Origin: Roseicella sp. DB1501 | GTDB lineage: Bacteria > Pseudomonadota > Alphaproteobacteria > Acetobacterales > Acetobacteraceae | NCBI RefSeq assembly: GCF_013112485.1 | Contig: NZ_JABFHG010000011.1 | Location: 1-64,000 of the forward strand | Direction: 5' to 3' | Length of the DNA: 64,000 nucleotides | Shown here: positions 10,514 to 43,116 of the stretch, one piece after another | Layout of the letters: every line of letters begins with the position of its first letter | How positions within the stretch are numbered: the stretch's first letter is position 1 | The notes under the pieces: generated by a model | The model's database searches: none | The model's input: only the letters and a program-made list of their open reading frames with translations | Told to the model about the DNA's origin: nothing | Translations under genes and position numbers: made by a program

Positions 10514-10623
10514 CTGGAGCGTGATCGCTTGGGGTGGAAACACCGAAAAGCGCGACTCACGCGATCAAACAACGGCCTGGACCATGATCCGTGACCCCGT
10601 GTGGGCGGATCATGGTCCAGAGC
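10514..10623 (+). repeat. Two-hairpin dispersed repeat, copy A (after rne)
   Basis: First module: TGATCGC (about 10522) pairs with GCGATCA (about 10561). Second module: GGACCATGATCCG pairs with CGGATCATGGTCC through a 14-base loop, a perfect 13-bp stem. It lies about 45 bases after the rne stop and in the same orientation as rne. Copies B, C and D are at 33.2, 41.9 and 43.1 kb. Confidence 0.9.
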
Positions 10624-10841
10624 GTGGGAGGCCATGCCGCGCGAACGGCCCCATGCTCCGGCGTCCAGCCTGCAATCGGCGGATGGGGTTGTGGTGTCGG
10701 CCGGTCAGGCGCGCGATGCGGCGCCCTGGTCATGTCCCGAAGGTGCCATTACGGCGACGGTCCGCATGACGGTGGGATGGACGGCCGCCGCATCCACGGC
10801 GCTTGCGCGGCAGGGCAGGCACAGGCCGGCCTCATACCAAC

Positions 10842-10957
10842 GGCCGTTGATGTCGGCACATCAACGGCCGCCATCGCTATCCCCGGGGCACCGGGCGGTT
10901 TGCCCGGTGAATTCTGGCTATGCCGATCGGGCGCTCGGCATGAATGGCCCATTCATG
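10842..10957. repeat. Cluster of four consecutive palindromes
   Basis: Four perfect inverted repeats follow one another: 10842-10869 (GGCCGTTGATGT / ACATCAACGGCC, 12 bp), 10889-10909 (CACCGGGC / GCCCGGTG), 10921-10940 (TGCCGA / TCGGCA) and 10939-10957 (CATGAATG / CATTCATG). They fill the space before the end of the gene at 10967. The region from 10624 to 10841 holds no gene that I can support. Confidence 0.8.
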
Positions 10958-10966
10958 CCGCTGGCC

Positions 10967-11302
10967 TCACGCCCGCACGGCGACTGGCACGGCCTCGGTC
11001 ATCTGCTGCAGGTCGCGCAGCGTGGAGCGCAGCAGCTCCACCTCCTCCTCCGAGAGCGGGCCGTCGCGCTCGTCGCCGGCTCGGCGCACCACCGTCGCCA
11101 GCTTCAGCACCGCCTCGGCCATGGTGGCGGCACGGGCATCGGCCAGCGCCGCGAGGGTGCGCGTCTCGGCCTCCAGCAGCAGGTCCAACAGGTCCTCATC
11201 CTCGGTCTCAGCCGATTCGACCTGGATCAACCGGGCGGACAGGGCCGGGATGTCGGCGGCGGGCGGAATCGGGAGCGGGCGGAGGGGAATGACCTGGGAC
11301 AT
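10967..11302 (-). CDS. Small acidic helical protein, unknown
   Basis: Predicted 111-residue protein, almost entirely helical: a proline-rich start (MSQVIPLRPLPIPP), an acidic stretch ESAETEDEDLLDLLLEAET at about residues 29-47, then amphipathic helices to the C-terminus with PLSEEEVELLRSTLRDL. No signal peptide or membrane segment. It follows the 77-residue gene at 11342-11575 by 39 bases on the same strand, probably as one operon. Family not recognised; the smooth helical pattern and GC-rich codon use argue that it is a real gene. Confidence 0.65.
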   Translation of the reverse strand: MSQVIPLRPLPIPPAADIPALSARLIQVESAETEDEDLLDLLLEAETRTLAALADARAATMAEAVLKLATVVRRAGDERDGPLSEEEVELLRSTLRDLQQMTEAVPVAVRA

Positions 11303-11341
11303 GAATGAAGCTCCGGCATGAAAGGGGAATGAGCGGGAAAA

Positions 11342-11575
11342 TCAAGGGTTCTTCAGCCCGGCGCCGTTCTGCACCGGCAGGACGCAGACGGGCGGGCACT
11401 GCGTCACTTGGCCGCCGCGGGCCTGGAAGGCGGCGACAAGGGCCGCGACCTCGGCCTCGCCTGGTTTCGGCAAATCCTGGCACCGCGCCTTATGGGCGAG
11501 GATCGTGGCAAGGGTGGTTCGGCGAGCCTGCGCGGCGGAGGCAGCGGGGGACAGCGGGCGATGGGCGGCGCTCAT
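11342..11575 (-). CDS. Small protein, unknown
   Basis: Predicted 77-residue protein with a basic, Ala-rich helical first half (SAAQARRTTLATILAHKARC) and a short C-terminal motif TQCPPVCVLPVQNGAG. The Cys-Pro-Pro-x-Cys pair might bind metal or form a disulfide, but no signal peptide is seen. It is the first gene of a probable two-gene operon. Its ribosome-binding site GAGGA, 6 bases from the ATG, can pair with an upstream CCTCACA, suggesting translational control. Function unknown. Confidence 0.6.
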   Translation of the reverse strand: MSAAHRPLSPAASAAQARRTTLATILAHKARCQDLPKPGEAEVAALVAAFQARGGQVTQCPPVCVLPVQNGAGLKNP

Positions 11576-11582
11576 CTTCAGT

Positions 11583-11626
11583 CCTCACAAATGCGCGATC
11601 CGCATATTGCATACGAAAATGTGAGG
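11583..11626 (-). promoter_or_regulatory. Possible Shine-Dalgarno-hiding hairpin
   Basis: On the minus strand CCTCACA (11620-11626 complement) is followed 30 bases later by TGTGAGG (11583-11589 complement). The second arm contains the ribosome-binding site of the 77-residue gene. Pairing would block translation. The AT-rich loop around 11600-11619 may also hold the promoter. Confidence 0.45.
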
Positions 11627-11719
11627 AACCCGACAAGCGTTATTCTCGAGATTTCGCGATCATTCGCCAGTCAAACTTGCATCGGTGGCGACAATTCCTG
11701 GCGGCGGTCGTTCGGACGC

Positions 11720-12073
11720 TCAGCCGCCGCCATGGACGGCCCGCGAATCCGCCGGCGCCTGCTCCCGCCGTTCCGTCATGCCGTAATCCCGCAGCACCGC
11801 CGCCACCCGGAGCCGATAGCCGGCGAAGATCCCGTCCCGTCCCGCCGCCTGCGCGCCGCGATGCGCGGCCTGGGCCCGCCAGCGGGCGACCGCGGCCTCA
11901 TCCTCCCAGAAGGAGAGGCTCAGCAGCTTCCGCGGGTCGCTGAGGCTGCGGAAGCGCTCGACGGAGATGAAGCCAGGCATCGCCTCCAGCACCGGACGCA
12001 GCCGCGCCGCATGGTCGAGATAGGCCTCCATCCGGCCCTCGGCCGGCTCCACCTCGAAGATCACCGCGATCAT
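11720..12073 (-). CDS. Antibiotic biosynthesis monooxygenase (ABM) family protein
   Basis: Single-domain protein of 117 residues with the dimeric ferredoxin-like ABM fold. MIAVIFEVEPAEGRMEAYLD begins the first strand and helix, MPGFISVERFRSLSDPRKLLSLSFWEDEAAVARWR is the signature middle part, and HRGAQAAGRDGIFAGYRLRVAAVLRDYG ends the domain. Members range from quinol oxygenases to heme-degrading enzymes; the true substrate is not visible. The start is the Met before IAVIFEV; the 13 codons upstream are not conserved in character. It is transcribed away from the ArsR-type regulator 110 bases off, which could control both sides. Confidence 0.85.
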   Translation of the reverse strand: MIAVIFEVEPAEGRMEAYLDHAARLRPVLEAMPGFISVERFRSLSDPRKLLSLSFWEDEAAVARWRAQAAHRGAQAAGRDGIFAGYRLRVAAVLRDYGMTERREQAPADSRAVHGGG

Positions 12074-12183
12074 GGCCCTTGGCTCCCGTCCCTCGACGCG
12101 CCAGCCTGCCACGGCATGGCACTGCCCGTCCTTCGCCCGGCCCCGAAGCGCCGCGGCCAGGACCGGGCTAGGCTGCCGCCATC

Positions 12184-12888
12184 ATGACCAGCCCCGCCGC
12201 CTTCGCCGCCACCGCCGCCCTGCTCGCTGAGCCGCCGCGCGCCGCCATGCTGCAGGCCCTGCTCTCGGGCGAAGCCCTGACGGCGGGCGAGCTCGCCCGG
12301 GTGGCCGGCATCGGCGCGCCGGCGGCGAGCGCGCATCTGGCGCGACTCGTCGAGGGCGGGCTGGTCGCGGTGCATCCGCAGGGCCGCCATCGCTACCACC
12401 GCCTCGCCTCGGAAGAGGTAGCGGCGGCGATCGAGACGCTGGGCGGCCTCGCCGCCGCGGTCGCGCCGCCGCCCCGCCGCTGGCCGCATGGCGAGGAATT
12501 CCGCGCCGCCCGGCTCTGCTACGACCATATGGCGGGGCGACTCGGTGTCGCGCTGCATGCCGGGCTGACGGGGCGCGGCTGGATCGCCCCCTCCCCCGGC
12601 GGCTGGGCCGCCACCGCGGCCGGCGAGGCGGGGCTGGCCGCGCTCGGCATCGACCTGCCGGCGGCCCGCAGCGCCCGCCGCTTCGCCTGCGACTGCATGG
12701 ACTGGTCGGAGCGCCGGCCGCATCTCGCCGGCGGACTGGGGCGGGAGCTCGCCGCCTGCTGCCTGCGCCGGCACTGGGTGGCCCGCCTGCCCGGCATGCG
12801 GGAGGGCGACCCGCTGGCCCGCCGCCGCCTGCGCCTCACCCCGGAAGGGGCGCGACGGCTGCACGAGGCGCTCGGGGTGGCGGCCTGA
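12184..12888 (+). CDS. ArsR-family transcriptional regulator
   Basis: DNA-binding protein of 234 residues. The winged helix-turn-helix is at about residues 8-90: LAEPPRAAMLQALLSGEALTAGELARVAGI, recognition helix APAASAHLARLVEGGLV, and wing PQGRHRYHRLAS. The long C-terminal region is unlike classical ArsR and includes FACDCMDWSERRPHLAGGLG, which could sense a metal or thiol through its two Cys. The stop overlaps the start of the MFS gene (TGATG), so regulator and transporter are one operon, a common layout for self-regulated efflux. The ligand is unknown. Confidence 0.85.
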   Translation: MTSPAAFAATAALLAEPPRAAMLQALLSGEALTAGELARVAGIGAPAASAHLARLVEGGLVAVHPQGRHRYHRLASEEVAAAIETLGGLAAAVAPPPRRWPHGEEFRAARLCYDHMAGRLGVALHAGLTGRGWIAPSPGGWAATAAGEAGLAALGIDLPAARSARRFACDCMDWSERRPHLAGGLGRELAACCLRRHWVARLPGMREGDPLARRRLRLTPEGARRLHEALGVAA

Positions 12889-14135
12889 TGCCGGGCGAGA
12901 CCAGCCTGGCGCGGCCCCTGACCGGCCTCGCCCCCGCCGCGAAGCTGCTGGTCGCCCTGGCGCTGATGACCGGCGCGAGCCAGTTCCACCGCGCCGCGCT
13001 CGGCGTGGTCGGGCCGGAGCTCACCGCCACGCTGCAGGCCGGGCCGGGGCTGCTTGGGGCGGCGAACGGCGCCTTCTTCCTCGCCCTGCTGCTGCTGCAG
13101 GTGCCGGTCGGGCTGGCGCTCGACCGCATCGGGCCGCGCCGCACCGTCGCCTGGCTGGCGGCGCCGGCGGCGCTCGGGGCGCTCGGCCAGGCGCTGGCGC
13201 CGGAGGCCGGCTGGTTCCTCGCCGCCCGCTTCCTGCTCGGCCTCGGCTGCGCCGCCTCCTTCATGGCCTCGGTCGTGCTCTGCGCCCGCTGGCATGCCGG
13301 GGCGGGGCTGACCACCGCCCTGGCCCGGGTCTTCGCCCTCAGCCAGGGCGGCGTGCTGCTCGCCGGCGCGCCCTTCGCGGCGCTGGCGGGGGCGATCGGC
13401 TGGCGCGGCGCCTATGCGCTCTCGGGCCTCGTCACCCTCGGCCTCGCCCTGCTCTGGTGGGGCTGGGTGCGGGACGACCCGCCGGACCGCCCGGCGCCGC
13501 ACCGCCCGGCCGAGACGCTGCTCCAGGCGCTGCGCGGCCAGCTCACCGTCTGGCGCACGCCCGGGCTGCTGCCGGTGCTGGCGATGCATTCCGTCGGCTA
13601 TGCCGCCATGGCGACGGTGCTGGCCGTCTGGGCCGGCCCCTGGCTGGCCGAGGCCTATGGCTTGGCGCCGGGGCCGCGCGGCATGGTGCTGCTCGGCATG
13701 GGGCTGGCGATGGTCGCCGGGCTGCTCGGCATCGGGCCGCTGGAGCGGCGGCTGAACACGCGGAAATGGCTGGTCGCCGGCATGGCCGGCGGGGCGGTGC
13801 TGGTGCTGCTGGCCCTCGCCACCTGGCCGCACCCGCCCCTGCCGGCGGCCATCGTCCTGCTGGTCGGGCTCTGCCTCCTCTCCTGCTATCCGGTGGTGGT
13901 GGTGGCGCATGGCCGCTCGCTCTTTCCCGACCATCTGGTCGGGCGCGGCGCCACGACGGTGAACCTGGCGCAGACGCTCGGCTCGGCGGCGCTGCCGGCG
14001 CTGACGGGCTGGGCGGTCGCCTTCGCGCCGGCGGGACAGGCCTGGCCGATCGCCTTCGGGGTGCTGGCGGCCGCCCTCGCCCTCGGCCTCGCCGGCTATC
14101 TCACCGGCCGGGATGCGCCGCCGCGGCCGGGCTGA
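12888..14135 (+). CDS. MFS transporter
   Basis: Inner-membrane transporter of 415 residues with about 12 membrane helices. The MFS signature between helices 2 and 3 is visible as GLALDRIGPRRTVAWL at about residues 72-87, and a second copy-like loop GIGPLERRLNTRKWLV lies in the second half. Substrate unknown; the size and sequence fit drug or small-molecule exporters. It is co-translated with the ArsR regulator, which probably represses it until a ligand binds. Its last 40 bases overlap the convergent aminotransferase gene, so no terminator separates them. Confidence 0.85.
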   Translation: MPGETSLARPLTGLAPAAKLLVALALMTGASQFHRAALGVVGPELTATLQAGPGLLGAANGAFFLALLLLQVPVGLALDRIGPRRTVAWLAAPAALGALGQALAPEAGWFLAARFLLGLGCAASFMASVVLCARWHAGAGLTTALARVFALSQGGVLLAGAPFAALAGAIGWRGAYALSGLVTLGLALLWWGWVRDDPPDRPAPHRPAETLLQALRGQLTVWRTPGLLPVLAMHSVGYAAMATVLAVWAGPWLAEAYGLAPGPRGMVLLGMGLAMVAGLLGIGPLERRLNTRKWLVAGMAGGAVLVLLALATWPHPPLPAAIVLLVGLCLLSCYPVVVVAHGRSLFPDHLVGRGATTVNLAQTLGSAALPALTGWAVAFAPAGQAWPIAFGVLAAALALGLAGYLTGRDAPPRPG

Positions 14136-15307
14136 GCCTGCCGTCCCAGCCAAGCCGCCAGCCGGCGCGGCGCCTCGGCCATGTCGGCCTCCGGCCCGCA
14201 ATAGCTGAAGCGCAGGAAGCGGCTGCCGCGGTCGCGGTCGAAATCGACGCCGGGCGTGGCGGCGATGCCGGCCTCGGCCAGCATGCGCTGGCAGAAGGCG
14301 ACCGAGTCGTTGGTCAGGTGCCCGACATCGGCCCAGAGATAGAAGGCGCCATCGGCGGGCGAGAGCCGGTCGAAGCCCGCCCGCGGCAGCGCCGCGAGCA
14401 GCCCGGCGCGGGCGCGGCGGTAGCGCGCGACATTGGCCTCCAGCTCCTCGCGGCAGTCGAAGGCCGCCTCGGCCGCCACCTGCGCCACATGCGGCGCCGA
14501 GATGACCATGTTCTGCGCCAGGCACTCGACCGGCCGGACCAGGTCCTCCGGCAGCACCAGCCAGCCGATGCGCCAGCCGGTCATGGAGAAGTATTTCGAG
14601 AAGCTGTTGACCACGATGGCGCTGCCCGAGACCGCGGCGGCGGTCGTCTCGGGCACCTCGCCATAGGTGAGGCCGTGGTAGATTTCGTCCGAGATGAGCC
14701 GCACACTGCGCCGCTCGCACCAGGCGGCGATGGCGGCGAACTCCGCCGGTGGCAGCATGGTGCCGGCCGGGTTGCAGGGGCTGGCGAGGATCAGCCCGGC
14801 CGGCGCCGGGTCCAGCGCCTCGAGCATGGCAACGGTCGGCTGCCAGCGCGTCTCCGGCCCGCAAGGCAAGAGCTGCGGCCGCATGCCAAGGGCGGTCAGG
14901 ATATTCGCGTAAGGCGGGTAGAAGGGCGCGGCCATCGCCACCGCATCGCCCGGGTCGAAGGCGGCGAGGAAGGCGAGCGGGAAGGCGCCCGAGGCGCCGA
15001 CGGTCACCGCCACCCGCGCCTCCGGCACCGCGGCGCCGTAGCGCTCGGCATAGTGGCGGGCGATGCGGGCGCGCAGGCTGCGCAGCCCGAAGGCCTCGGT
15101 ATAGCCCATGGGCTGCCCGGCCGAGAGGGCGCGGATCGCCGCCTCGGCGGCGCCGCGCGGCGCGCCGGTGCCGGGCTGGCCGACCTCCATGCGCAGGATG
15201 CCCGGCGCGCCGGGCGGCAGCGCCGCGGCGCGCTGGTTGGCGGCGCTGATCACGTCCATCACCAGGAAGGGCGGCGCTTCCGCCCCCCGGCCCACCTTGA
15301 GCGGCAT
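14096..15307 (-). CDS. Pyridoxal-phosphate aminotransferase, class I/II
   Basis: Fold-type I aminotransferase of 403 residues that moves an amino group between an amino acid and a 2-oxoacid in the cytoplasm. Visible motifs: GYTEAFGLRSLRARIARHY near 70, VGASGAF (cofactor phosphate), ASPCNPAGTMLP, SDEIYHGLTY (Asp and Tyr contacting the ring) and VVNSFSKYFSMTGWRIGW with the Schiff-base Lys. A later start at the Met before DVISAANQ (15259) is possible. Substrate specificity cannot be read. The C-terminal 13 codons overlap the MFS gene on the other strand. It is followed upstream by the lipoprotein gene 24 bases away on the same strand. Confidence 0.9.
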   Translation of the reverse strand: MPLKVGRGAEAPPFLVMDVISAANQRAAALPPGAPGILRMEVGQPGTGAPRGAAEAAIRALSAGQPMGYTEAFGLRSLRARIARHYAERYGAAVPEARVAVTVGASGAFPLAFLAAFDPGDAVAMAAPFYPPYANILTALGMRPQLLPCGPETRWQPTVAMLEALDPAPAGLILASPCNPAGTMLPPAEFAAIAAWCERRSVRLISDEIYHGLTYGEVPETTAAAVSGSAIVVNSFSKYFSMTGWRIGWLVLPEDLVRPVECLAQNMVISAPHVAQVAAEAAFDCREELEANVARYRRARAGLLAALPRAGFDRLSPADGAFYLWADVGHLTNDSVAFCQRMLAEAGIAATPGVDFDRDRGSRFLRFSYCGPEADMAEAPRRLAAWLGRQAQPGRGGASRPVR

Positions 15308-15331
15308 GGCGTCCTTTCTACTCGTCCCCCT

Positions 15332-16771
15332 CTACTCGTCCACTGCGCCGAGCGCGACGCCGTAGCCGCGCGGATCGCTGGCGATGAGGCAGCGGTCCGG
15401 CCGCCCGGGCAGGTAGTTCTGGCAGGCGGCGAGCTGGGTGCGGGCGGTGCCGGGCGCGCCGGACTCGATCGCCACTTCGGGTGCCAGGCCCCGGAAGAGC
15501 TGCAGCGCCGCCGGCCCGGCCACGCCGATCGCCGCCGCCTCCTGGCCCGAGGCCGCGGCAGCGAGGCGGAAGGCCTTGAAATTCGGGTTGTAGGCGATGG
15601 CCGCCGAGAGCAGCGGCGGCTGCACCGCGCCGAGGCCGGGGGCGGCAGCGAGCAGGAAGCCCATCCCCGGCGCCATCCGGCCGGTGCCGAAGAGGTTGTT
15701 CATGGTGAAGGCGCAGGAGACCGCATTGCCCCGCCGGTCGAAGGCGACGAGCCCGGTCGAGGCCGGCAGCGTCCCGAGCCGGGCGGGCGGCAGGTTCGTC
15801 GCGGTGACGACGCTGCGCGGATCGCCGCCCTGGCTGCGGAAGGCCGCGACCGCCGCCAGGCCGCGCTCGGCGCCCGCGCCGATATCGGCGCCGCCGCGCA
15901 GCGCCTCGAAGGCCGCCGCCGCCGCCACGCCACCATCGGCCGGCGGCGGCAGGAAGGCGATGCGGTCGCCGCCGCGGCTGGCGAGGTCGATGGGCTTCTC
16001 GAGCCCCGGCAGCGCCGCCCGCAGCTCGTCGAAGGTGAGGCTGCCGCCGGCTTGGGGCGAGACCTCCGCCAGCCGCCGCGCCAGCATGCCCTGATGCAGG
16101 TCGCCGACGCCGGCGAGGCGAAGCTGGCCGAGGGTGCCGGCGAGCTCCGGCTGCAGCATGGTCTCGCCCGCCTGCTTCGGGCCACCACCCGGGCGGCCGA
16201 AGACTGCCGCGGCGCCGGGATCGGCGAGCAGCGGGCCGGCGACCGCGGCGAGATCGGCGGCGAGGCCGCGGCTCACCTCCGTGCCGAAGCGGGCGCGCTG
16301 CTCGGCCGGCGCCATCAGCTCCTCGAAGGGCCGGCCGGGCTTGCGGGTGTGCAGGGCGAAGAGGCCGCGGGCGAGCAGCGGCACCGCCGCCGGGCGGTCG
16401 GCGCCGGCCGGCACGCCCTGGCGCGGGCCAGGCAGGAAGACCACGGCCTCGGGCGCGCCCTTGTCGGGGTCGAAGACCAGGCAGGCGCCGCCGCCGCCGA
16501 TCCCGACGCGCGAGGGCAGGGTCACGCTCATCACGAAGCCGGCGGCGACCGCCGCATCCACCGCCGTGCCGCCGGCCGAGAGCACCTGCCGCCCCGCCAG
16601 GGCGGCCGCCGGGTCCTCGGCCGCGATGCCGCCGAGGAAGCCGCGGACGAAGCCGGGCTGGCCCTCGGGCGGCCCGCCCGGGCCGAAGGGATTCAGCCCC
16701 GACAGGGTCTCGCAGCCCGGCAGGGCCAGGGCGCAGAGACCGAGGGCCGCGGCGCGCAGGCGATGCGTCAT
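15332..16771 (-). CDS. Gamma-glutamyltransferase-like lipoprotein
   Basis: Protein of 479 residues, shorter than typical gamma-glutamyltransferases. The start MTHRLRAA leads into a lipoprotein signal with lipobox LALPGC (Cys20). The large-subunit part begins AGRQVLSAGGTAVDAAVAAGFVMSV and GIGGGGACLVFD. The region equivalent to the self-cleavage site reads LPASTGLVAFDRRGNAVSCAFTMNNLFG. The usual Thr-Thr-His is reduced to Ser-Thr-Gly, although the nucleophilic Thr position may be kept. It may be a diverged hydrolase or a non-processed homologue. It probably lies in the periplasm and is transcribed just before the aminotransferase. The longer upstream open frame lacks features. Confidence 0.8.
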   Translation of the reverse strand: MTHRLRAAALGLCALALPGCETLSGLNPFGPGGPPEGQPGFVRGFLGGIAAEDPAAALAGRQVLSAGGTAVDAAVAAGFVMSVTLPSRVGIGGGGACLVFDPDKGAPEAVVFLPGPRQGVPAGADRPAAVPLLARGLFALHTRKPGRPFEELMAPAEQRARFGTEVSRGLAADLAAVAGPLLADPGAAAVFGRPGGGPKQAGETMLQPELAGTLGQLRLAGVGDLHQGMLARRLAEVSPQAGGSLTFDELRAALPGLEKPIDLASRGGDRIAFLPPPADGGVAAAAAFEALRGGADIGAGAERGLAAVAAFRSQGGDPRSVVTATNLPPARLGTLPASTGLVAFDRRGNAVSCAFTMNNLFGTGRMAPGMGFLLAAAPGLGAVQPPLLSAAIAYNPNFKAFRLAAAASGQEAAAIGVAGPAALQLFRGLAPEVAIESGAPGTARTQLAACQNYLPGRPDRCLIASDPRGYGVALGAVDE

Positions 16772-17171
16772 CCCGCGCGCGGGGGACCCGATGCCCGGCT
16801 GTTGGGTGGCCTGGGCCCTCATCTCGGCGCTGCTCGTCATGCTGGCGTCCCTGGTCCCCATCTCACGCGCCGGCGCGGCGTCTCCCGCTGCGCGCGCCTC
16901 ACCTCGCGCGCCCCATCTCGCACAGGTGGCCGGCGCACACCCCTGGCGGTCGCCGCCCGACCGCGGCGCGGCGCACGCAGGTGCAGGCGCGGCCCATAAA
17001 CGCCTTCGCCACCACCGGCAACCGCGGGATCGCGCGGAAACGCGCCCGGCCGTGTGGCGGCCAGGATCGGCACATAGGATCGGCGAACAGGATTTGCCTC
17101 GCCGGCCGAAGCGCGACACCCTAAGCCGGGCGCAGGGCGGCCGCAGCCGCCATGGTCCGGAGACGAGCACG
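16772..17171. other. Divergent promoter region, no gene seen
   Basis: This 400-base gap separates the divergent lipoprotein and DsbA-like genes. Both strands stay open because of the high GC, but no frame shows a start with a ribosome-binding site and a plausible protein. AT-richer patches near 17015 and 17075 are the best places for promoters. Confidence 0.5.
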
Positions 17172-17924
17172 ATGATGCGCCTATCCCGGCTGGTTCTGCT
17201 GGCCGGCCTCGCCTTTGCCTCGCCCGCGCTTGCCCAGACGGCGGGGCCTGGCCTCACGCCCGCGCAGCGCCAGGAAGTCATCGCCGTGCTGCGCGATGCG
17301 CTGAAGCAGGATCCGAGCATCCTGCGCGATGCGCTGGTGGCGCTGGAGCAGGCGGAGAACCAGGAGCGCCTGGGCGCCCAGCGCGCCGCCATCACCGAGC
17401 ATGCGGCGGCGCTGTTCCGCGATGCCGAGGATCCGGTGAAGGGCAACCCCCAGGGCAAGGTGACGCTGGTCGAGTTCTTCGACGCCCGCTGCGGCTATTG
17501 CAAGCAGATGCAACCGGCGATGGACGCGCTGCTGCAGCGCCAGAAGGATGTGCGGCTGGTGCTGAAGGACCTGCCGATCCTCGGCCCGAACAGCTTGCTG
17601 GCGAGCCGCGCCCTGCTCGCGGCGCAGCGCCAGGGCCGCTATGCCGAGCTGCACGAGGCGCTGATGCGGCTGCGCGAGGACCCGACCGAGCCGGTGCTGA
17701 AGCGCGAGGCGGAGAAGGTCGGGCTCGACTGGGCGCGGCTGCGCCGCGACATGGACGATCCGGCGATCGCCCGCCGGATCGAGGCGAATACGCGCCTTGC
17801 CGGCGCGCTGAAGATCCAGGGCACGCCGGCGCTGGTGATCGGCGACAGCCTGGTCCCGGGCGCCGTCGACCTGGCGACGCTCGAGAGGCTGGTCGGCGAG
17901 GCGCGCAACCGCCAGGGCGGCTGA
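17172..17924 (+). CDS. Periplasmic thiol:disulfide oxidoreductase, DsbA/Com1-like
   Basis: Thioredoxin-fold protein of 250 residues exported to the periplasm. A Sec signal peptide (RLSRLVLLAGLAFASPALAQ) ends near residue 22. A helical linker (about 28-90) is typical of the Com1/BdbD-like group. The thioredoxin domain follows with the active site CGYC (Cys107, Cys110), the helical insertion, and the cis-Pro loop QGTPALVIGD. It makes or isomerises disulfides in secreted proteins. The start is the first of two adjacent ATG codons (MM). It is divergent from the lipoprotein gene, and 48 bases before the MBL gene on the same strand. Confidence 0.9.
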   Translation: MMRLSRLVLLAGLAFASPALAQTAGPGLTPAQRQEVIAVLRDALKQDPSILRDALVALEQAENQERLGAQRAAITEHAAALFRDAEDPVKGNPQGKVTLVEFFDARCGYCKQMQPAMDALLQRQKDVRLVLKDLPILGPNSLLASRALLAAQRQGRYAELHEALMRLREDPTEPVLKREAEKVGLDWARLRRDMDDPAIARRIEANTRLAGALKIQGTPALVIGDSLVPGAVDLATLERLVGEARNRQGG

Positions 17925-17972
17925 CGGGCGACTGACAGCCGGGCAAAGACCCCCATCCGGCGGAGGCGCCGC

Positions 17973-18791: not shown

Positions 18792-18929
18792 CCGCCCGGC
18801 CGCGCCGCGCCCGCACCCGCCCTGGGCGGCTTCACCGCCGCGGCATCGGGCGGTTTCGCGGCGCATCCGGCGGTGTCGCCGGATTGCCGGGGCCCGCGCC
18901 GCGTATAGACTGCCCATGGGAGACAAGGG

Positions 18930-21121: not shown

Positions 21122-21159
21122 GATCGGCGGCCAGGCTGCGCCGGTTCATTCGCTGTCCG

Positions 21160-32807: not shown

Positions 32808-33214
32808 TCCGGCGCCCCGCCTTACTGCTGTCGGCCCTGCTGCTGCCAGCCCTGCTGCTGCCAGCCCTGCTCCTCGCCGCGCCGGCCATGGCGCAGCAGC
32901 CGCGCTGCGGCTTCGGCCTTGGGCTGGAGGCGATGCGCCAGGCCGAGCAGGCGCTGCGGGCCGGCGCGGCGGCGCCCGGACTGCTGCCCGCCCGCGCGGC
33001 GGCGGAGACGGCGCAGGCGGCCCTCGCCGAGGCGGCTGGGCGGCTGCAGGGCTGCGGCTGCGCCCGCGCCGCGGAGCTCACCGGCGAGGCGGTGCGGCTG
33101 GCGGAGCAGGCCCCCTTCGAATCCTCGCTGGACCGCCTCGCCCGCGTGCTGGACCGCGCCCGCCTCTCGCTCGGCCTCGCCCGCGACCGGCTCGGCCGCG
33201 AGGGCTGCGGCTAG
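32804..33214 (+). CDS. Small secreted protein, unknown
   Basis: Predicted 136-residue protein. A long signal peptide with hydrophobic core ALLLSALLLPALLLPALLLA ends at AMAQQ near residue 30. The mature part is a helical, Ala-rich domain with four or five Cys (CGFGLG, CGCARA, and a final GREGCG). The core of the signal contains a 15-bp tandem duplication (32836-32865). It is co-translated with the pseudouridine synthase. The stop codon TAG lies inside the edge of repeat copy B. Probably periplasmic; function not recognised. Confidence 0.7.
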   Translation: MIRRPALLLSALLLPALLLPALLLAAPAMAQQPRCGFGLGLEAMRQAEQALRAGAAAPGLLPARAAAETAQAALAEAAGRLQGCGCARAAELTGEAVRLAEQAPFESSLDRLARVLDRARLSLGLARDRLGREGCG

Positions 33215-33320
33215 AGCGTGATCGCTTAAGGTGGACTCACCGAACAGCGTGACTCACGCGATCAAGCAACGGCCTGGACCATGATCCGCCACCCTGTGTG
33301 AGCGGATCATGGTCTGGAGC
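33211..33320 (+). repeat. Two-hairpin dispersed repeat, copy B
   Basis: Starts CTAGAGCGTGATCGC, in which TAG is the stop of the preceding gene. First module: TGATCGC pairs with GCGATCA about 35 bases on. Second: GGACCATGATCCG pairs with CGGATCATGGTCT (13 bp, the last pair G-U in RNA). Same orientation as the upstream gene. Confidence 0.92.
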
Positions 33321-33354
33321 ATTCCCCGTTCACCTGCGTTCACGGCAAATGCTC
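33317..33354. repeat. Orphan hairpin related to the repeat's second module
   Basis: GAGCATTCCCCG and CGGCAAATGCTC pair at 10 of 12 positions around a 14-base loop. On the minus strand the loop reads TGAACGCAGGTGAA, close to TGAACCGGAGTGAA of copies C and D. The stem sequence differs from the full copies although the shape is kept. It abuts copy B. The following 78 bases to the yaiI stop hold nothing recognised. Confidence 0.75.
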
Positions 33355-33432
33355 TAGCAGCTTGTTTGCAGAGCAAATTCACGCCTCCGGGCGAGGCCGC
33401 CCTGCGGCGATCTGCTTTGATTCGCCCCTGCT

Positions 33433-36729: not shown

Positions 36730-36749
36730 CACCGGGCGGGGCGGGACAG

Positions 36750-39700
36750 ATGAACATCTCGGAACTCTGCATCCGCCGTCCGGTGATGACGGTGCTGCTC
36801 TCGCTGGCCGCCATCGTGGCCGGGGCCGTCGCCTATACGCGGCTGCCGGTCGCCGCCGTGCCGCGGGTGGATTTCCCGGTCATCACCATCTTCGCCAACT
36901 TCCCCGGCGCCAGCCCGGAGACCATGGCGACCAGCGTCGCCCTGCCGCTCGAGCGCGAGCTGTCGACCATCGCCGGCGTCGACACCATGTCCTCCATCAA
37001 CGGCCAGGACACGACGCAGATCACGGTGCAGTTCGTGCTCGGCCGCAACATCGACGCGGCGGCGCAGGACGTGCAGGCGGCGATGACACGCGCCCAGCGT
37101 CGTCTGCCCATCGATATGACCATCCCGCCGAGCTACCGCAAGGTGAACCCGGCGGATGCCCCGGTGGTGCTGCTGACCCTTTCGGGCGGCGACGCGCCGC
37201 TCTACCGGCTGAACGACATCGCCAGCACCATCATCGGCCCTGCCCTCTCGCGCGTGCCGGGCGTGGCGCAGGTGCAGACCTATGGCGAGCAGCTCTATTC
37301 CGTCCGCGTGCGGCTCGACCCCGACCGCACCGCCGCCATGGGCCTCGCCTTCGACACGCTGCAGAACAGCATCGCGGCGGCCAATTCCAACACCCCGGTC
37401 GGGCTGCTGAACGGCACCCGGCAGCAGCTCACGCTGCGCGCCAACGACCAGCCGCAGAGCGCCGCCGAGTTCGGCCAGCTCGTCGTCGCTGGCCGGGCCC
37501 AGGCGCCGGTGCGGCTCTCCGAGATCGCCAAGGTGGCCGACGGGGTGCAGAACGAGCGCGTCGCCGCCTGGCGCAACGACAAGCGCGCCCTGGTGCTCGC
37601 CGTGCTGCGCCAGCCGGACGCCAACACGGTCGAGGTGGTGGACGGGGTGAAGTCCAGCATCCTCGCCCTGCAATCCGCCCTGCCGCCCGGGGTCGAGCTC
37701 AACGTCATGCTCGACCGCTCCCGCTCGATCCGCGACGCGGTGCACGACGTGCAGGAGAGCCTGCTGATCGCTATCGGGCTGGTGGTGTTGGTCTGCTTCC
37801 TCTTCCTGCGGCGGCTGACGGCGACGCTGATCCCGACCGTCGCGGTGCCCATCAGCCTCTGCGTCGCCTTCGGGTTGATGTACGTCCTGGGCTACGGCAT
37901 CGACAACGTGACGCTGCTCGGCCTGACCATCGCGGTCGGGCTGGTGGTGGACGACGCGATCGTGGTGCTGGAGGCGATCGTCCGCCATATCGAGGCGGGG
38001 ATGGCGCCGATGCAGGCGGCGATCCGCGGCGCGCGCGAGATCGGCTTCACCGTCCTCTCCATCACCCTCTCCCTCATCGCCGTCTTCCTGCCGATCCTGC
38101 TGATGGGCGGCGTGGTCGGGCGGGTCTTCAACGCCTTCGCCGCCACCGTCTCGCTCGCGGTCATCGCCTCCTGCATCGTCTCCCTCACCCTGACGCCGCT
38201 GATGGCCAGCCGTCTGCGCGGCCACCATGCGCCGGGCAAGCGCCCGCCGCTGCTCGACCGCGTGCTGGAGGGCGGCTTCCAGGGGATCGAGCGCGGCTAT
38301 GCCTGGATGCTGGACAGGGCGCTGCGCTTCCGGCTGGCGGTCTGGGCGCTCTTCCTCCTCTCCCTCGGCGCCGCCGCCTATGTGGCGGTGGTCATCCCCA
38401 AGGGCTTCTTCCCGGTCGAGGATACCGGCTTCATCCTGATCAACACCGAGGGGCCGCGCGGCGCCTCCATGGCGGCGATGGCGGAGGTGCAGGGCCGGCT
38501 GAGCGAGGCGCTGCTGAAGACGCCCCATGTGACCAATGTCGTCTCCAACCTCGGCGCGGTGGGCGGCAGCATCTCCATCAACCAGGGCCGTCTCTTCGTC
38601 GAGCTGAAGCCGCGCCAGGAGCGGCCGCCGGTCGAGCACGTGATCCAGGAGCTGCGGCGGACGGCGAACGGCTTCCCCGGCCTCCGGGTCTTCATGCAGC
38701 CGATCCAGAACATCAATTTCGGCGCCCGGCAGACCCGCACCCAGTATCTCTACTCCCTGCAGGGCCTGCGGCTCGACGAGCTCTATGACTGGGCGCCGCG
38801 GCTGGAGGAGCGGCTGCAGAAGCTGCCGCAACTGCAGGACGTGAACACCGACCTGCAGCTCGACAGCCCGGTGGTGCTGGTCAATGTCGACCGCGACCGG
38901 GCGACGACGCTCGGCGTCACGGTGGACCAGGTGCGGCAGGCGCTGTTCTCGGCCTTCGGCGCCCGGCAGATCTCCACCATCTACGGCCAGGCGAATGCCT
39001 ATCCGGTGATCCTGGAGGCGCTGCCGGAGGACCAGCGGGACGAGACCGGCCTCGCCAAGCTCTATGTCCGCTCGAATACCGGCAGGCTGGTGCCGCTCTC
39101 GGCCGTCGCCTCGATCGAGCGGCGCTCGGGCCCGCTCAACGTCTCGCATCAGGGCCAGCTGCCAGCAGTCGTCATCGGCTTCAACACCCCGCCCGGCGTC
39201 GCGCTCGGCGATGCGGTGCAGGCGATCCGCGCGGTCGAGCGGGAGATGGGCCTGCCGCCGAGCGTCGTCACCGGCTTCTCCGGCGCCGCGCAGGTCTTCC
39301 AGGAGGCGCTGGCCGGCCAGGGCATGCTGGTGCTGACCGCCGTGCTCATCATGTATGTCGTGCTCGGCGTGCTGTACGAAAGCCTGATCCACCCGCTGAC
39401 CATCCTCTCGGGCCTGCCGGCGGCGGCGCTCGGCGCCTTCGCCACGCTCTACCTCTTCGGCCTCGACCTCTCGGTGATCGCGGTCATCGGCGTGCTGCTG
39501 CTGATCGGGCTGGTGAAGAAGAACGCCATCATGATCGTCGACGTGGCGCTGCAGCGGCAGCGGGCCGGCTCGCCGGCGCTGACGGCGGTACGCGAGGCCT
39601 GCCTGCTGCGCTTCCGGCCGATCCTGATGACCACGCTTGCGGCCGGCGCCGGCGCCATCCCGATCGCGGCCGGCTGGGGCGCGGCGGCGGAGCTGCGGCA

Positions 39701-39851
39701 GCCACTCGGCCTCGCCGTGGTGGGCGGCCTGGCGGTGAGCCAGGTGCTCACCCTCTTCGTCACGCCGGTGCTCTATCTCGGCTTCGACAGCCTGGCGCGG
39801 AAGCTGAGCTTCGGCCGCGGCGCGGTGCCGGCGGCGGCGCCGGCCGAATGA
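36750..39851 (+). CDS. RND multidrug efflux permease (MdtB/C-like)
   Basis: Proton-driven pump of 1033 residues, full family length, with 12 membrane helices and two large periplasmic loops. Start MNISELCIRRPVMTVLLSLAA is the usual first helix. In helix 4, GLTIAVGLVVDDAIVVLEAIVRHIEAG (about 390-415) contains the two Asp of the proton relay. The matching helix 10-11 area has VIGVLLLIGLVKKNAIMIVDVAL with the essential Lys. Resembles MdtB/MdtC and other HAE1 pumps, which export dyes, bile salts or novobiocin; the actual substrate is unknown. It overlaps the cupin gene by ATGA. Confidence 0.95.
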   Translation: MNISELCIRRPVMTVLLSLAAIVAGAVAYTRLPVAAVPRVDFPVITIFANFPGASPETMATSVALPLERELSTIAGVDTMSSINGQDTTQITVQFVLGRNIDAAAQDVQAAMTRAQRRLPIDMTIPPSYRKVNPADAPVVLLTLSGGDAPLYRLNDIASTIIGPALSRVPGVAQVQTYGEQLYSVRVRLDPDRTAAMGLAFDTLQNSIAAANSNTPVGLLNGTRQQLTLRANDQPQSAAEFGQLVVAGRAQAPVRLSEIAKVADGVQNERVAAWRNDKRALVLAVLRQPDANTVEVVDGVKSSILALQSALPPGVELNVMLDRSRSIRDAVHDVQESLLIAIGLVVLVCFLFLRRLTATLIPTVAVPISLCVAFGLMYVLGYGIDNVTLLGLTIAVGLVVDDAIVVLEAIVRHIEAGMAPMQAAIRGAREIGFTVLSITLSLIAVFLPILLMGGVVGRVFNAFAATVSLAVIASCIVSLTLTPLMASRLRGHHAPGKRPPLLDRVLEGGFQGIERGYAWMLDRALRFRLAVWALFLLSLGAAAYVAVVIPKGFFPVEDTGFILINTEGPRGASMAAMAEVQGRLSEALLKTPHVTNVVSNLGAVGGSISINQGRLFVELKPRQERPPVEHVIQELRRTANGFPGLRVFMQPIQNINFGARQTRTQYLYSLQGLRLDELYDWAPRLEERLQKLPQLQDVNTDLQLDSPVVLVNVDRDRATTLGVTVDQVRQALFSAFGARQISTIYGQANAYPVILEALPEDQRDETGLAKLYVRSNTGRLVPLSAVASIERRSGPLNVSHQGQLPAVVIGFNTPPGVALGDAVQAIRAVEREMGLPPSVVTGFSGAAQVFQEALAGQGMLVLTAVLIMYVVLGVLYESLIHPLTILSGLPAAALGAFATLYLFGLDLSVIAVIGVLLLIGLVKKNAIMIVDVALQRQRAGSPALTAVREACLLRFRPILMTTLAAGAGAIPIAAGWGAAAELRQPLGLAVVGGLAVSQVLTLFVTPVLYLGFDSLARKLSFGRGAVPAAAPAE

Positions 39852-40180
39852 AGATCCCGCCCCTTCCCTTCACCGTCACCGACTGGTCGGCGATGCCGGA
39901 AACCCGGCATCCCGGCGAGACCGGCGAGGCGATCTGGAGGACGCTCGAGATCGGCGACCTGCGCGTGCGCATGGTGGAATACACGCCGGGCTACCTCGCC
40001 GACCATTGGTGCGACCGCGGCCATGTGCTGCTGGTGCTGGAGGGCGAGCTGGAGACCGAGCTGCGCGACGGCCGCCGCTTCGTGCTGCGGCCGGGGATGA
40101 GCTACCAGGTTTCCGATTTCGGCGACGCCGCCCACCGCTCCTCCACCCGCACCGGCGCGAAGCTTTTCATCGTCGACTGA
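39848..40180 (+). CDS. DHCW-motif cupin-fold protein
   Basis: Small cupin of 110 residues. It shows the family's namesake region YTPGYLADHWCDRGHVLLVLEGELETELRDGR, where the Asp-His-Trp-Cys order and the following His are likely metal ligands. It continues to LRPGMSYQVSDFGDAAHRS and a final strand KLFIVD. A single conserved beta-barrel domain, cytoplasmic, enzymatic role unknown. It starts inside the pump's stop codon (ATGA), so it is made together with the RND system although no functional tie is known. A strong hairpin lies 54 bases after its stop. Confidence 0.9.
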   Translation: MKIPPLPFTVTDWSAMPETRHPGETGEAIWRTLEIGDLRVRMVEYTPGYLADHWCDRGHVLLVLEGELETELRDGRRFVLRPGMSYQVSDFGDAAHRSSTRTGAKLFIVD

Positions 40181-40233
40181 GCGCGCCGCGGTCACGCCCG
40201 CAGCGCACCTCTCCATCCGTCGCCTCCCGTTGC

Positions 40234-40258
40234 CCTGCCGCGGCTTCGCCGCGGCAGG
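40234..40258. terminator. Hairpin after the RND operon
   Basis: CCTGCCGCGGC, loop TTC, GCCGCGGCAGG: a perfect 11-bp stem between the convergent cupin and MFS genes. There is no T-tract, but position and strength fit a two-way terminator. Confidence 0.6.
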
Positions 40259-40344
40259 CTGTGACGGATCCCGGGCCCGGGGCGAATCCCGGGCCCCCCG
40301 CGAAGACGCGAAGCGGCTTCGTGGGGGTTAAGTCGTGGGGAGCA

Positions 40345-41817
40345 TCATTCCGCCGGCAGGCGCTTGGACGGGCCGGTGCCGTGGCCGCTCACCGCCTCGC
40401 CCGCATCGGGGGCCAGCCGGGCGAAGAAGGGCGCCGAGGCGAGGATCACCAGCCCGGCCACCAGGAAGCCGGCAACGAAATCGGGCCCGGCCGGGGCGTG
40501 CCGGCCGGCCAGCTCCGCGCTCGCCTCCAGCGTCGTCGTCGCCAGCACCACGCCGAGCGCCGGGGCGAGCTGCTGCGCGGTGCCGGCGAAGCTGGTCGCC
40601 GCCGAGAGGCGCGGCGGCGGCACATCGGCGAAGGCCAGGGTGTTGAGGGCGGTAAATTGCAGGCTGCGGAACAGCCCGCCCAGCGCCAGCACGGCGAAGA
40701 GCAGCGGCGCGGGCCAGGCCGGGGTGAAGGCTGCCGGCAGCGCCACGCCGACCGCCGCCAGCAGTGAGGCGCCGATCAGCGCCTGGCGGAAGCCGAAGCG
40801 TTTCAGCACCGGCCGGGCCAGCGGCTTCATCGCCAGCGCCCCGAGGGCCGTGGCGAAGGAGACGAGCCCGGCCTCCGAGGCGCTGCGGCCGAAGCCGACC
40901 TGCAGCAGCATCGGCACCAGGAAGGGCGAGGTGCCGGCGCCGATGCGGAACAGGCTGCCGGCCAGGGTCGAGGTGTTGAAGGTCGGGATGCGCAGCAGCG
41001 AGATGTCGAGCGCCGGCCGCTTCGCCCGCCGGCAATGCCGGATCGCCGCCCAGCCGAACACCGCCCCGAGCACGAGCCCGGCCTGCGGCAGGCCGGGCGG
41101 CACCACGCCGCGGCCGATCGTCTCCAGCCCGAACATGAAGAGGGCGAGCGCCAGGCCGATCAGCAGCAAGCCGGGGAGGTCCGGCGGGCCGGGATTGCTG
41201 GGCGCGACGGGCGGGATCTTCCAGGCCACCATGACGAGGCCGAGGGCGCCGATCGGCACATTGATGAGAAAGACCGATTGCCAGCCGAAGGCATCCGTCA
41301 GGAGGCCGCCGAGCGGCGGGCCGCTGATCGGCCCGATCATCGCCGGCATGGTGAGCCAGGCCATGGCGCTCAGCATCTCGTCCTTGCGGATCTGCCGCAG
41401 CAGCAGCAGCCGCGCGACCGGCACCATCATGGCGCCGCCGACGCCCTGCAGGACGCGCGCGCCGATGAGCTCGGCGACACCGCTCGCCCGGCCGCAGAGG
41501 ACGGAGGCGAGGGTGAAGACGACGATCGCCACCATGAAGACGCGCTTGGCGCCGAAACGGTCGGCCACCCAGCCGGAGACCGGGATGAAGACGGTGAGCG
41601 CGACGAGATAGGAAGTGATGGCCGCGCCGAGCCGCGCCGGCTCCACGTTCAGATCCCGCGCCATGGCCGGCAGCGCCGTCGTCACCGCGCTGCTGTCGAG
41701 GTTCTGCATGAAGAGGGCGCTGGCGACGATGGCGGCGATCAGCCGCGGATCGGCCTTCGTTTCGGGCGCGGGCAGTGGGCTGGGGGAGGCGGGGTCCGCC
41801 CCGCCGGAGTCGGTCAT
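40345..41817 (-). CDS. MFS drug exporter, DHA2 (EmrB/QacA-like)
   Basis: Inner-membrane proton antiporter of 490 residues with about 14 helices. Marks: SALFMQNLDSSAVTTALPAMARDLNV at the start (motif D1 of 14-helix pumps), SGWVADRFGAKRVFMVAIV (motif A), RVLQGVGGAMMVPVARLLLLRQIRKDEML (motif B) and PAMIGPISGPPLGGLLTDAFGWQSVFLINVPIG (motif C, typical of exporters). The substrate is unknown. It stands alone; 46 bases upstream of its start lies repeat copy C, which ends the previous gene on the same strand. Confidence 0.92.
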   Translation of the reverse strand: MTDSGGADPASPSPLPAPETKADPRLIAAIVASALFMQNLDSSAVTTALPAMARDLNVEPARLGAAITSYLVALTVFIPVSGWVADRFGAKRVFMVAIVVFTLASVLCGRASGVAELIGARVLQGVGGAMMVPVARLLLLRQIRKDEMLSAMAWLTMPAMIGPISGPPLGGLLTDAFGWQSVFLINVPIGALGLVMVAWKIPPVAPSNPGPPDLPGLLLIGLALALFMFGLETIGRGVVPPGLPQAGLVLGAVFGWAAIRHCRRAKRPALDISLLRIPTFNTSTLAGSLFRIGAGTSPFLVPMLLQVGFGRSASEAGLVSFATALGALAMKPLARPVLKRFGFRQALIGASLLAAVGVALPAAFTPAWPAPLLFAVLALGGLFRSLQFTALNTLAFADVPPPRLSAATSFAGTAQQLAPALGVVLATTTLEASAELAGRHAPAGPDFVAGFLVAGLVILASAPFFARLAPDAGEAVSGHGTGPSKRLPAE

Positions 41818-41862
41818 CCGACCAAACTAGCCCGCGGCCGGTCCCGGGGAAACCGCCGCGGC

Positions 41863-41970
41863 GCCTGGGCCATGGTCCGTTCACTCCGGTTCACGGACCA
41901 TGGCCCAGGCCGTTGTTCGATCGCGTGAGTCTCGCCTTCGATGAGTCCACCTCAGGCGATCACGCTCCAG
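41863..41970 (-). repeat. Two-hairpin dispersed repeat, copy C
   Basis: Reads on the minus strand, as does the gene before it. The long stem is GGGCCATGGTCCG / CGGACCATGGCCC, a perfect 13 bp around TGAACCGGAGTGAA. Two base pairs differ from copies A and B and both are compensated on the other arm. It starts 5 bases after the oxidoreductase stop. Confidence 0.92.
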
Positions 41971-41975
41971 CCCCA

Positions 41976-42980
41976 TCACGGCCGCAGCACCACCCGGCCG
42001 ACGGCGTTGCGGCCCCGCACCTCGGCCATGGCGGCGCGGAATTCCGGCAGCGGGAAGCTCGCATGCACCTCCGGCTTCAGGGCGCCGGCCGCCCACCAGT
42101 CGATGAGCTGCTGCCAGAGCGCCCGCACCCGCGGCGCATGGATCTGCCGGTTGTCGCCCGGCGACCAGCCGACATAGGTGCCCCAATTCACCCCCGCGAC
42201 GGCGATGTTCTTCAGCAGCAGCAGGTTGAGCGGCAGGCTCGGGATGCCGCCGGCGGCGAAGCCGATGGTCACCATCATGCCGCCATCGCCGAGGCAGCGG
42301 AGGTTGTCGTCGAAGACCGGGCCGCCGAGGGTATCGAGCAGGGCACTGACGCCGGCGCCGCCGGTCGCCTGCCGCACCGTCTCGCGGAAGGGCTCGGCGC
42401 TGTCGAGCACGAGGTCGGCGCCGCGCGACAGCGGAACCTGCCGCTTCGCCGCGCCGCAGCGGGCGATCACCCGGGCGCCGAGCGCCTTGGCGATCTCGAC
42501 CCCGGCGAGGCCGACGCCGGCCGCCGCGCCATGCACCAGCACCCAGGGCGCGCCCTGGTCCGGTGCCAGCCGCGCCCGCCACAGCAGGGCCGAGGCGGCG
42601 GTCGGGTAGCTGATCGGCATGGCGACCGCCGGCGCCAGCGGCAGCCCGTCCGGGATCGGCATGACATGGATGGCGTCGGCGACCGCCTCCTCTGCCAGCC
42701 CGCCCCAGTCGAGCACGGCGAAGACGCGGGTGCCGGGCGGCAGCGGGTCCGGCACGTCCGGCGCGCTCTCGATCACCGTGCCCGCCACCTCGGTGCCCGG
42801 GGTGAAGGGCAGCGGCGGCTTGCGCTGGTACTTGCCGGCGACAACGAGCTGGGTGGCGAAGGAGACGCCAGCCGCCTCCACCCGGATCCGCACGCCGCCG
42901 GGCCGCAGCGCCGGCGGCGGCACCTCCTTCAGCTCGAGCGCGTCGAACTCGCGCCAGCTCTCGCAGACCAATGCGCGCAT
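41976..42980 (-). CDS. NADPH:quinone oxidoreductase-type zinc-free MDR
   Basis: Medium-chain reductase of 334 residues, close to quinone oxidoreductase and YhdH/crotonyl-type enzymes. The GroES-like half has LRPGGVRIRVEAAGVSFATQLVVAGKY and PFTPGTEVAGTVIE. The NADPH site is VLVHGAAAGVGLAGVEIAKALGARVIARCG at about 168-197, with the AAxGVG fingerprint. No zinc-binding Cys cluster, as expected. It would reduce quinones or enones in the cytoplasm. Flanked on both sides by repeat copies (C after its stop, D before its start), and transcribed in the same direction as the TctC gene upstream. Confidence 0.9.
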   Translation of the reverse strand: MRALVCESWREFDALELKEVPPPALRPGGVRIRVEAAGVSFATQLVVAGKYQRKPPLPFTPGTEVAGTVIESAPDVPDPLPPGTRVFAVLDWGGLAEEAVADAIHVMPIPDGLPLAPAVAMPISYPTAASALLWRARLAPDQGAPWVLVHGAAAGVGLAGVEIAKALGARVIARCGAAKRQVPLSRGADLVLDSAEPFRETVRQATGGAGVSALLDTLGGPVFDDNLRCLGDGGMMVTIGFAAGGIPSLPLNLLLLKNIAVAGVNWGTYVGWSPGDNRQIHAPRVRALWQQLIDWWAAGALKPEVHASFPLPEFRAAMAEVRGRNAVGRVVLRP

Positions 42981-43012
42981 GCCAGTGTCTCCCCGCGGAC
43001 TGCGTGGCGTTT

Positions 43013-43116
43013 TCAGACCATGATCCGTTCACTCCGGTTCACGGATCATGGTCTAAATTATTGTTTGATCGCGTGATTCACGCCTTCGGAGTCCACCTCA
43101 GGCGATCACGCTCTAG
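43013..43116 (-). repeat. Two-hairpin dispersed repeat, copy D
   Basis: Minus-strand element beginning CTAGAGCGTGATCGC, whose TAG is the stop codon of the TctC gene, as in copy B. The long stem AGACCATGATCCG / CGGATCATGGTCT is perfect at 13 bp; its first pair is A-T where copy A has G-C. The linker between modules is more decayed than in the other copies. Confidence 0.92.

Follow-up and report, generated by a model that had tools for sequence, protein, structure and literature searches.

The window examined here is a stretch of 64,000 nucleotides from Roseicella sp. DB1501 (contig NZ_JABFHG010000011.1, positions 1 to 64,000 of the forward strand), whose genome, referred to below as G000, comprises 6.0 Mb in 47 contigs. 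The window carries four copies of a short repeat composed of two hairpins, each at the 3' end of a gene (Table 1). An earlier note, made from the letters of the window, had described these copies and proposed an mRNA 3'-end function for them. All four were confirmed, with their places and strands. The second stem described in the note is indeed a hairpin, although it has up to 16 pairs and a 12-base loop instead of 13 bp and 14 bases. Three of the four upstream genes were correctly named (RNase E, the dehydrogenase and TctC), whereas the supposed secreted protein is an open reading frame (ORF) without a Pfam match. The copies do lie close after stop codons, but copies 2 and 4 contain the stop themselves, with TAG as bases 2–4 of the element. 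A fifth, diverged element, which the note had overlooked, belongs to the same superfamily and lies tail-to-tail with copy 2, the two having the four bases at 33314–33317 in common.

Table 1. Elements, element-borne stop codons, hairpins and upstream genes in the window.
Feature	Position	Strand	Remarks
Element copy 1	10514–10620	+	Ends CTGG/CCAG; 43 nt past RNase E stop TAA
Element copy 2	33211–33317	+	Own CTAG holds the upstream gene's stop TAG
Element copy 3	41865–41970	−	5 nt past zinc-type dehydrogenase stop TGA
Element copy 4	43013–43116	−	Own CTAG holds the TctC gene's stop TAG
Fifth element, diverged, other subfamily	33314–33421	−	Class-wide model, 63.5 bits, E 1e-16
Stop codon TAG from copy 2	33212–33214	+	
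Stop codon TAG from copy 4	43113–43115	−	
Hairpin I of copy 1	10519–10562	+	Outer, middle and inner stems, asymmetric bulge
Hairpin II of copy 1	10577–10620	+	Long, up to 16 pairs
Hairpin II of copy 2	33274–33317	+	
Hairpin II of copy 3	41865–41908	−	
Hairpin II of copy 4	43013–43056	−	
RNase E gene	7324–10470		Upstream of copy 1; Pfam
ORF	ending 33214		Upstream of copy 2; no Pfam match
Zinc-type dehydrogenase gene	41976–42980		Upstream of copy 3; Pfam
TctC gene	43113–44099		Upstream of copy 4; Pfam

The consensus of 55 complete copies from G000 is 107 bp long, starts and finishes with CTAG, and has an AAACAA linker (GCGATCAAACAA) between a bulged hairpin I and a long hairpin II. It is a short non-coding repeat with inverted ends (CTAGAGC and CTAGACC, reading inward), as is characteristic of miniature inverted-repeat transposable elements (MITEs). 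A first look with one copy gave 182 candidates in G000, 40 of which were scored, and the 5' signature GAGCGTGATCGCNN{0,3}NGGTGGA had 76 exact matches, compared with none for the reversed control. Across 464 kb, 24 copies were found, including 20 in positions 1–400000 of contig C1, which was chosen regardless of the element, and the four in the window. The 5' tetramers of 72 copies were CTAG (39), CTGG (12), CCAG (7), TTAG (7), GTAG (2) and others (5), and the 3' tetramers were mostly CCAG (31) or CTAG (30); AG directly followed the 3' end in 61 of these copies. CTAG itself is scarce in G000, with 92 occurrences in the 464 kb versus 1171 predicted by base composition (approximately 13-fold below), and 22 of the 92 sit at elements. 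Additionally, in a sister species of the same genus (G003), element pairs were arranged head-to-tail at C9:48735–48942 and C78:162377–162588 with a period of about 103. Adjoining copies in such tandem arrays have their terminal four bases in common, as if new copies had inserted into the CTAG terminus of an existing copy.

To describe placement, genes were called with a simple Markov-based finder written for this analysis. The G000 set contained 87 non-redundant copies from the window and 80 fetched stretches, 60 of which were picked by sequence pattern regardless of orientation; one copy overlapped a gene call and five had no neighbour, leaving 81. These lay between convergent genes in 37 cases, between tandem genes in the sense (15) or antisense (24) direction, and between divergent genes in five. 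For other Acetobacteraceae genera, 79 of 107 rows were used, leaving out 22 with E 1.9e-10 or worse, five loci of the G003 species and one row that was cut off. Both neighbours were called for 59 of the 79 (one pair having identical surroundings), six overlapped a gene call and 14 were flankless or at an edge; the 59 comprised 36 convergent, 14 tandem sense, 8 tandem antisense and 1 divergent placements. Copies strongly favour gene ends, in other genera as well, and the 3'-end placement recognised in the earlier note was thus borne out, although it does not require an mRNA 3'-end function. In contrast, the statement that the element always follows the orientation of the gene applies to the four window copies but not to the genome as a whole; the tandem counts in both sets show no strong sense excess of the kind the note had proposed, and a sense-only orientation was rejected on these counts. 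The 39 copies not supplying a stop codon (13 convergent, 21 tandem and 5 divergent) can be set against intergenic lengths of 9,052, 30,205 and 19,642 bases, respectively. Therefore, divergent regions are avoided also by copies that do not touch a stop.

In 42 of the 81 placed copies from G000, an adjoining gene uses a terminal TAG of the element as its stop codon, at the 5' (sense) end only in 26, at the 3' (antisense) end only in 15 and at both ends in one; each of the 43 stops concerned is a TAG. In the other genera, a stop lay within the terminal tetramer in 32 of 59 copies by a strict count (31 TAG and 2 TAA ends). For 50 TAG ends in loci from foreign genomes, the frame ending in that TAG stayed open over 100 codons or more in 27 cases, compared with 9 and 5 for the other two frames. 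Sense ends carried stops somewhat more often than antisense ends, both by the strict count (27 versus 16 in G000, 22 versus 11 in other genera) and by a looser pooled count (49 versus 29, p = 0.03). The smaller number of CTAG 3' ends leaves fewer 3' ends usable as stops, and this could explain the mild sense excess.

The comparison with G003 covered 47 elements from the two sequence sets. Matching flanks were found in the other species for 15 of these, and in all 15 the corresponding junction was without the element. For the element at C1:227560, G003 carries a hairpin-II fragment within that gap, next to the other of its two genes. Copy 2 and the fifth element are both missing at the corresponding G003 site. 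For 13 element-borne stop codons, the sister gene terminated at the same codon in every case, with TGA in 10 and TAG in 3, and both orientations were represented; none of these stops is accompanied by an element in the other species. Copy 2 is one such example, since its sister gene in G003 ends in TGA at the same codon. One G003 gene (C12 163312) was excluded from the 13 because its stop, a TGA near an element fragment, is not the TAG of the element. As a control, 36 TAG stops without an element in G000 had sister stops of TAG (26), TGA (7) and TAA (3) (Fisher p = 3.9e-4), and the control from the G003 side was similar (n = 39; TAG 26, TGA 9, TAA 4; p = 8.6e-4). An earlier, smaller sequence set had given TGA in 7/10 versus 1/18. 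Furthermore, all 10 sister TGA stops lie in CTGA, nine within CTGAG, compared with 52/154 conserved TGA stops. The site of copy 4 also reads TGA in the genomes G002 and G004 and that of copy 2 reads TGA in G004; therefore, TGA looks ancestral. A pre-existing TAG as the target is disfavoured by this test, although the AG following most 3' ends leaves room for it.

Three empty-site junctions (A, B and J) were readable, and each was compatible with insertion after CT. A target duplication of CT or TA is compatible with junctions A and B, and one of CT with J, and the AG after the 3' ends may belong to either the target or the element. A four-base CTAG duplication was rejected, since the 5' and 3' tetramers were identical in 18/72 copies, compared with a shuffled mean of 20.0.

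The window copies fold as two hairpins with RNA folding z-scores of −5.0 to −8.7, and for each copy none of 200 shuffles was as stable. A structural alignment was made of 19 sequences, namely, the four window copies and 15 of 20 loci from ten genomes; four loci that were incomplete or folded poorly by eye (L114, L119, L121 and L122) and one near duplicate (L124) were left out, a choice that favours structure. Two-sided changes that still paired were found in 23 of 31 pairs, with a covariation of 0.441 versus 0.169 when shuffled, and none of five measures was reached in any of 500 shuffles. Without guidance, RNAalifold recovered 26 pairs, 20 of which had two-sided changes. A further alignment, of 68 matches from across the class, was fitted to the model structure and included some loci on both strands. 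Here 30 of 31 pairs were two-sided, which was reached by 3/500 shuffles; covariation was 0.683 versus 0.181 when shuffled, and the remaining measures were reached by 0/500. Changes private to single copies hit the stems about as frequently as the linker and loop II. Across 73 copies from G000, private changes per site amounted to 0.47 and 0.57 in the stems, 0.50 in the linker, 0.58 in loop II and 0.20 in loop I, and 21 of 30 private stem changes broke their pair, 9 keeping it. Private changes thus gave no sign of selection on the stems after insertion, although overall divergence leans the other way. Because compensatory changes appear when lineages are compared but not in the private mutations, we infer from these small numbers that the fold is needed for making new copies more than for any later service to the host.

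The element is not confined to this genome. A survey of the class with strict filters (at most 13 candidates scored per genome, E up to 1e-6) found matches to the covariance model in at least 21 of 289 genomes, the own genome included, and most of the foreign loci listed show by eye a TAGAGC hairpin, an AAACAA-like linker, a further hairpin and GCTCTA. Three sister species of the same genus had 15, 53 and 23 model matches, and the loci listed from them, four from each, have quite different stem sequences. On Sinorhizobium meliloti pSymB, 16 places matched with E up to 0.01 (17 rows, one place on both strands), and 12 of 15 places among the matches listed have TAG at one or both ends. A sequence search of a plasmid collection with the consensus gave no match.

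Other features of the window were also recorded. At the curated Rfam score, the window gave transfer-messenger RNA (tmRNA) families only and ten element loci gave none; a permuted alphaproteobacterial tmRNA lies at 46773–47142 (+). ARAGORN reported antisense tRNA-Gly and tRNA-Ser within the RNase E gene (7882–8063, −), which are probably false positives. A separate repeat of approximately 110 bp at 40217–40326 has many near copies in G003, and a 14-base piece of it has six matches in 613 kb of G000.

G000 holds many copies of one consensus in both orientations, their sites differ between sister species, and their stems covary between lineages. These findings suggest that the repeat is probably a non-autonomous mobile element, similar to a MITE or to repetitive extragenic palindromic (REP) sequences, whose TAG-bearing ends replace stop codons harmlessly. 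The location at gene 3' ends most likely reflects safe insertion sites rather than a service to the mRNA. The mobile unit would be roughly 103 bp long, with TA or CTAG at each end and the AAACAA linker between two hairpins. An enzyme encoded elsewhere would copy it to new places, a step for which the hairpins would matter more than for any role in the host once inserted. Insertion would occur at a short site of the YT|RR type, such as CTGA or CTAG; the exact cleavage positions are likewise putative. Since either end begins with TAG when read from the flank, insertion at a stop codon would give TAG at the same codon and leave the protein unchanged, and the change from TGA to TAG would take place at the moment of insertion. 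Copies that hit coding sequences or promoters would be purged by selection, so that the remainder would be found at gene ends, especially between convergent genes. A role at the mRNA 3' end is possible as a side effect, given the strong hairpins right behind many stops.

Several observations weigh against this reading. No mobilising enzyme was found: PF01797 (Y1_Tnp) had no match in G000, with matches in 5 of 14 control genomes, and none of the four DDE_3 (IS630-type) genes of G000 has matching inverted repeats, DDE_3 and Y1_Tnp being the families searched. Few junctions are usable: A is clean, in B the empty species carries a short tandem repeat, and in J the flanks have diverged. The AG after most 3' ends suits a CTAG target or an AG owned by the element better than it suits CTGA targets. 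In the sister-stop test, the G003 site C87 40825 has a 43-bp sub-threshold fragment beside a TAG stop that is TAA in G000, and its inclusion gives 10/14 (p = 9e-4); some of the control stops that changed from TAG to TGA resemble other repeats. Of 492 non-coding CTGA and CTAG sites lacking an element, 185 are stop codons. If such sites are preferred and harmful insertions are lost, much of the 52 per cent of copies bearing a stop would be explained, but not quite all, because the observed 42/81 exceeds this target pool (p = 0.011) and something adds to targeting. When all differences among the G000 copies are counted, the stems (0.047 and 0.048 per site) are less divergent than the linker and loops (0.079–0.111), and two-sided paired changes number 14 versus 5.4 expected in stem I and 13 versus 9.5 in stem II; we tentatively attribute both to subfamilies. 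In addition, the sample of private stem changes comprises 30, and the placement counts depend on the simple gene finder.

A more far-reaching version of this reading is that the repeat belongs to an ancient two-hairpin mobile family spanning the Alphaproteobacteria, with near-complete sequence turnover within a genus and a retained fold, moved by an enzyme other than Y1 and specialised to stop codons, where it converts TGA to its own TAG in either orientation. We offer this tentatively, as possible rather than probable.

Among the alternatives, a MITE moved by a DDE-type transposase, with either an IS630-like TA duplication or an IS5-like four-base CTAG duplication, is unlikely but has several features in its favour. 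The ends are inverted, copies in other genera have TA at either side and differ in the bases further out, and a 100-nt MITE duplicating CTAG or YTAA has been described (excerpts of PMC3189936). One of the four DDE_3 genes, at locus L141, also has CTAG-associated ends, lying between the inverted sequences GCTAGTGGATTGATT and GCTAGTGGTTTGATC (at about 1371 and 2522), both of which start at CTAG. IS630 prefers CTAG, and this gene possibly belongs to a CTAG-targeting insertion sequence. Nevertheless, an IS630 partner for the element was rejected given the lack of matching inverted repeats beside the four genes, a result that covers DDE_3 and not other transposase families. Moreover, the seven copies with a 5' TTAG have CTAG (five) or CCAG (two) at the 3' end and never TTAG, which argues against a four-base duplication, and TA is absent from the ten empty stop sites, all of which read CTGA.

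The proposal of the earlier note in its full form, namely, an mRNA 3'-end element whose hairpins terminate, protect or process the upstream message and which selection retains at gene ends, appears still more doubtful. For REPs, stabilisation of mRNA, attenuation of transcription or ribosome stalling close to stop codons has been reported (excerpts of PMC5082802), and the strong 3'-end placement, the very stable hairpins, the excess at stops over the target pool, the mild sense excess of stop-borne ends and the lower overall divergence of the stems would all suit such a function. However, the GC-rich hairpin followed by a T run that marks an intrinsic terminator is not present: a T-rich stretch followed the 3' end in 0/76 copies and, on the other strand, the 5' end in 2/76. 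A scan of two regions for terminator-like sites, limited to loops of 3–8 bases and hence blind to the 12-base loop of hairpin II, found none at copies 2–4; its sole match, a weak one of 5 pairs at 33396–33408 inside the fifth element, would count for the proposal. Against it stand also the occurrence of both orientations between tandem genes, the different sites in sister species, and private mutations that do not spare the stems.

It is very unlikely that the element is a classical but longer REP moved by a REP-associated tyrosine transposase (RAYT; Y1/HUH transposase). Like the GTAG REPs, the element has a tetranucleotide at the base of an imperfect hairpin, supplies TAG stops and is present in many copies, yet the tag is CTAG, the length is 107 bp versus 20–40 bp, and mobilisation by a RAYT was rejected since the own genome has no Y1_Tnp. 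Among 12 element-bearing genomes, Y1_Tnp was present in two and lacking in ten. A DNA-level chromosomal site for methylation or for binding of a nucleoid protein or gyrase is extremely improbable: GANTC, the CcrM methylation motif, averages 1.41 per copy (two consensus sites, at positions 24 and 41), compared with 0.86 per kb over a 613-kb sample of G000, but sites are not conserved with the sister species and GANTC is missing, by eye, from several rhizobial-type relatives.

If the element is mobile as proposed, an apparent mRNA 3'-end signal becomes a testable case of insertion-site choice and selection, in which an element with a stop codon at both ends can occupy a harmless spot at the edge of a gene. 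The same case serves as a caution that a 3'-end position alone does not show function. A single covariance model could bring together repeats that appear to have been described genus by genus, with RIME, Br-REP and Bru-RS as candidates, and would provide a handle for finding the copying enzyme. A class-wide family landing on stops would, if real, mean that gene ends are rewritten with the proteins unchanged.

A literature search, conducted mostly by listing and covering little subscription literature, recognised no CTAG-ended bipartite family. That REPs supply TAG stops is already known from the GTAG REPs (excerpts of PMC3733652), whereas the search brought up no account of this element, of its two-hairpin architecture with TAG at either end, of evidence for a TGA-to-TAG change or of covariation across the class.

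Comparison with known systems yields several partial likenesses. Bru-RS1 and Bru-RS2 of Brucella are alike by description only, as palindromic repeats in an alphaproteobacterium. RIME1 and Bru-RS are of about the same size as the G000 element. The RIME and Sm repeats of Sinorhizobium are likewise intergenic rhizobial repeats (excerpts of PMC2573895), but the pSymB matches, which may correspond to RIMEs, differ considerably in sequence from the G000 element, and RIME is a candidate relative only. The pSymB record, as consulted, shows no annotated repeats. Br-REP1 and Br-REP2 of Bradyrhizobium are palindromes of 3' untranslated regions, located also between convergent genes, for which fast evolution was suggested; they have other consensus sequences, and Br-REP1 lies among three stem-loops (excerpts of PMC5082802). 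MITEPsy1 of Pseudomonas syringae is similar as a 100-nt MITE with inverted repeats that inserts at CTAG or YTAA, and differs in its 4-bp target duplication and 18-nt inverted repeats, with no conserved double hairpin described in the excerpts of PMC3189936. The closest parallels are found in the GTAG REPs, which, according to the excerpts of PMC3733652, have many copies, mostly at gene 3' ends and in convergent or unidirectional gaps, compensated stems and an uneven spread among species; their termini often give TAG stop codons, and some REP species also lack RAYTs. Their single palindrome of 20–40 bp (excerpts of PMC3733652) contrasts with the 107 bp, two hairpins and AAACAA linker found here. 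Whereas GTAG marks those REPs, it occurs at 2/72 of the 5' ends of the present element, which has CTAG in its place, has no Y1 gene found in its genome and carries TAG at both of its ends.

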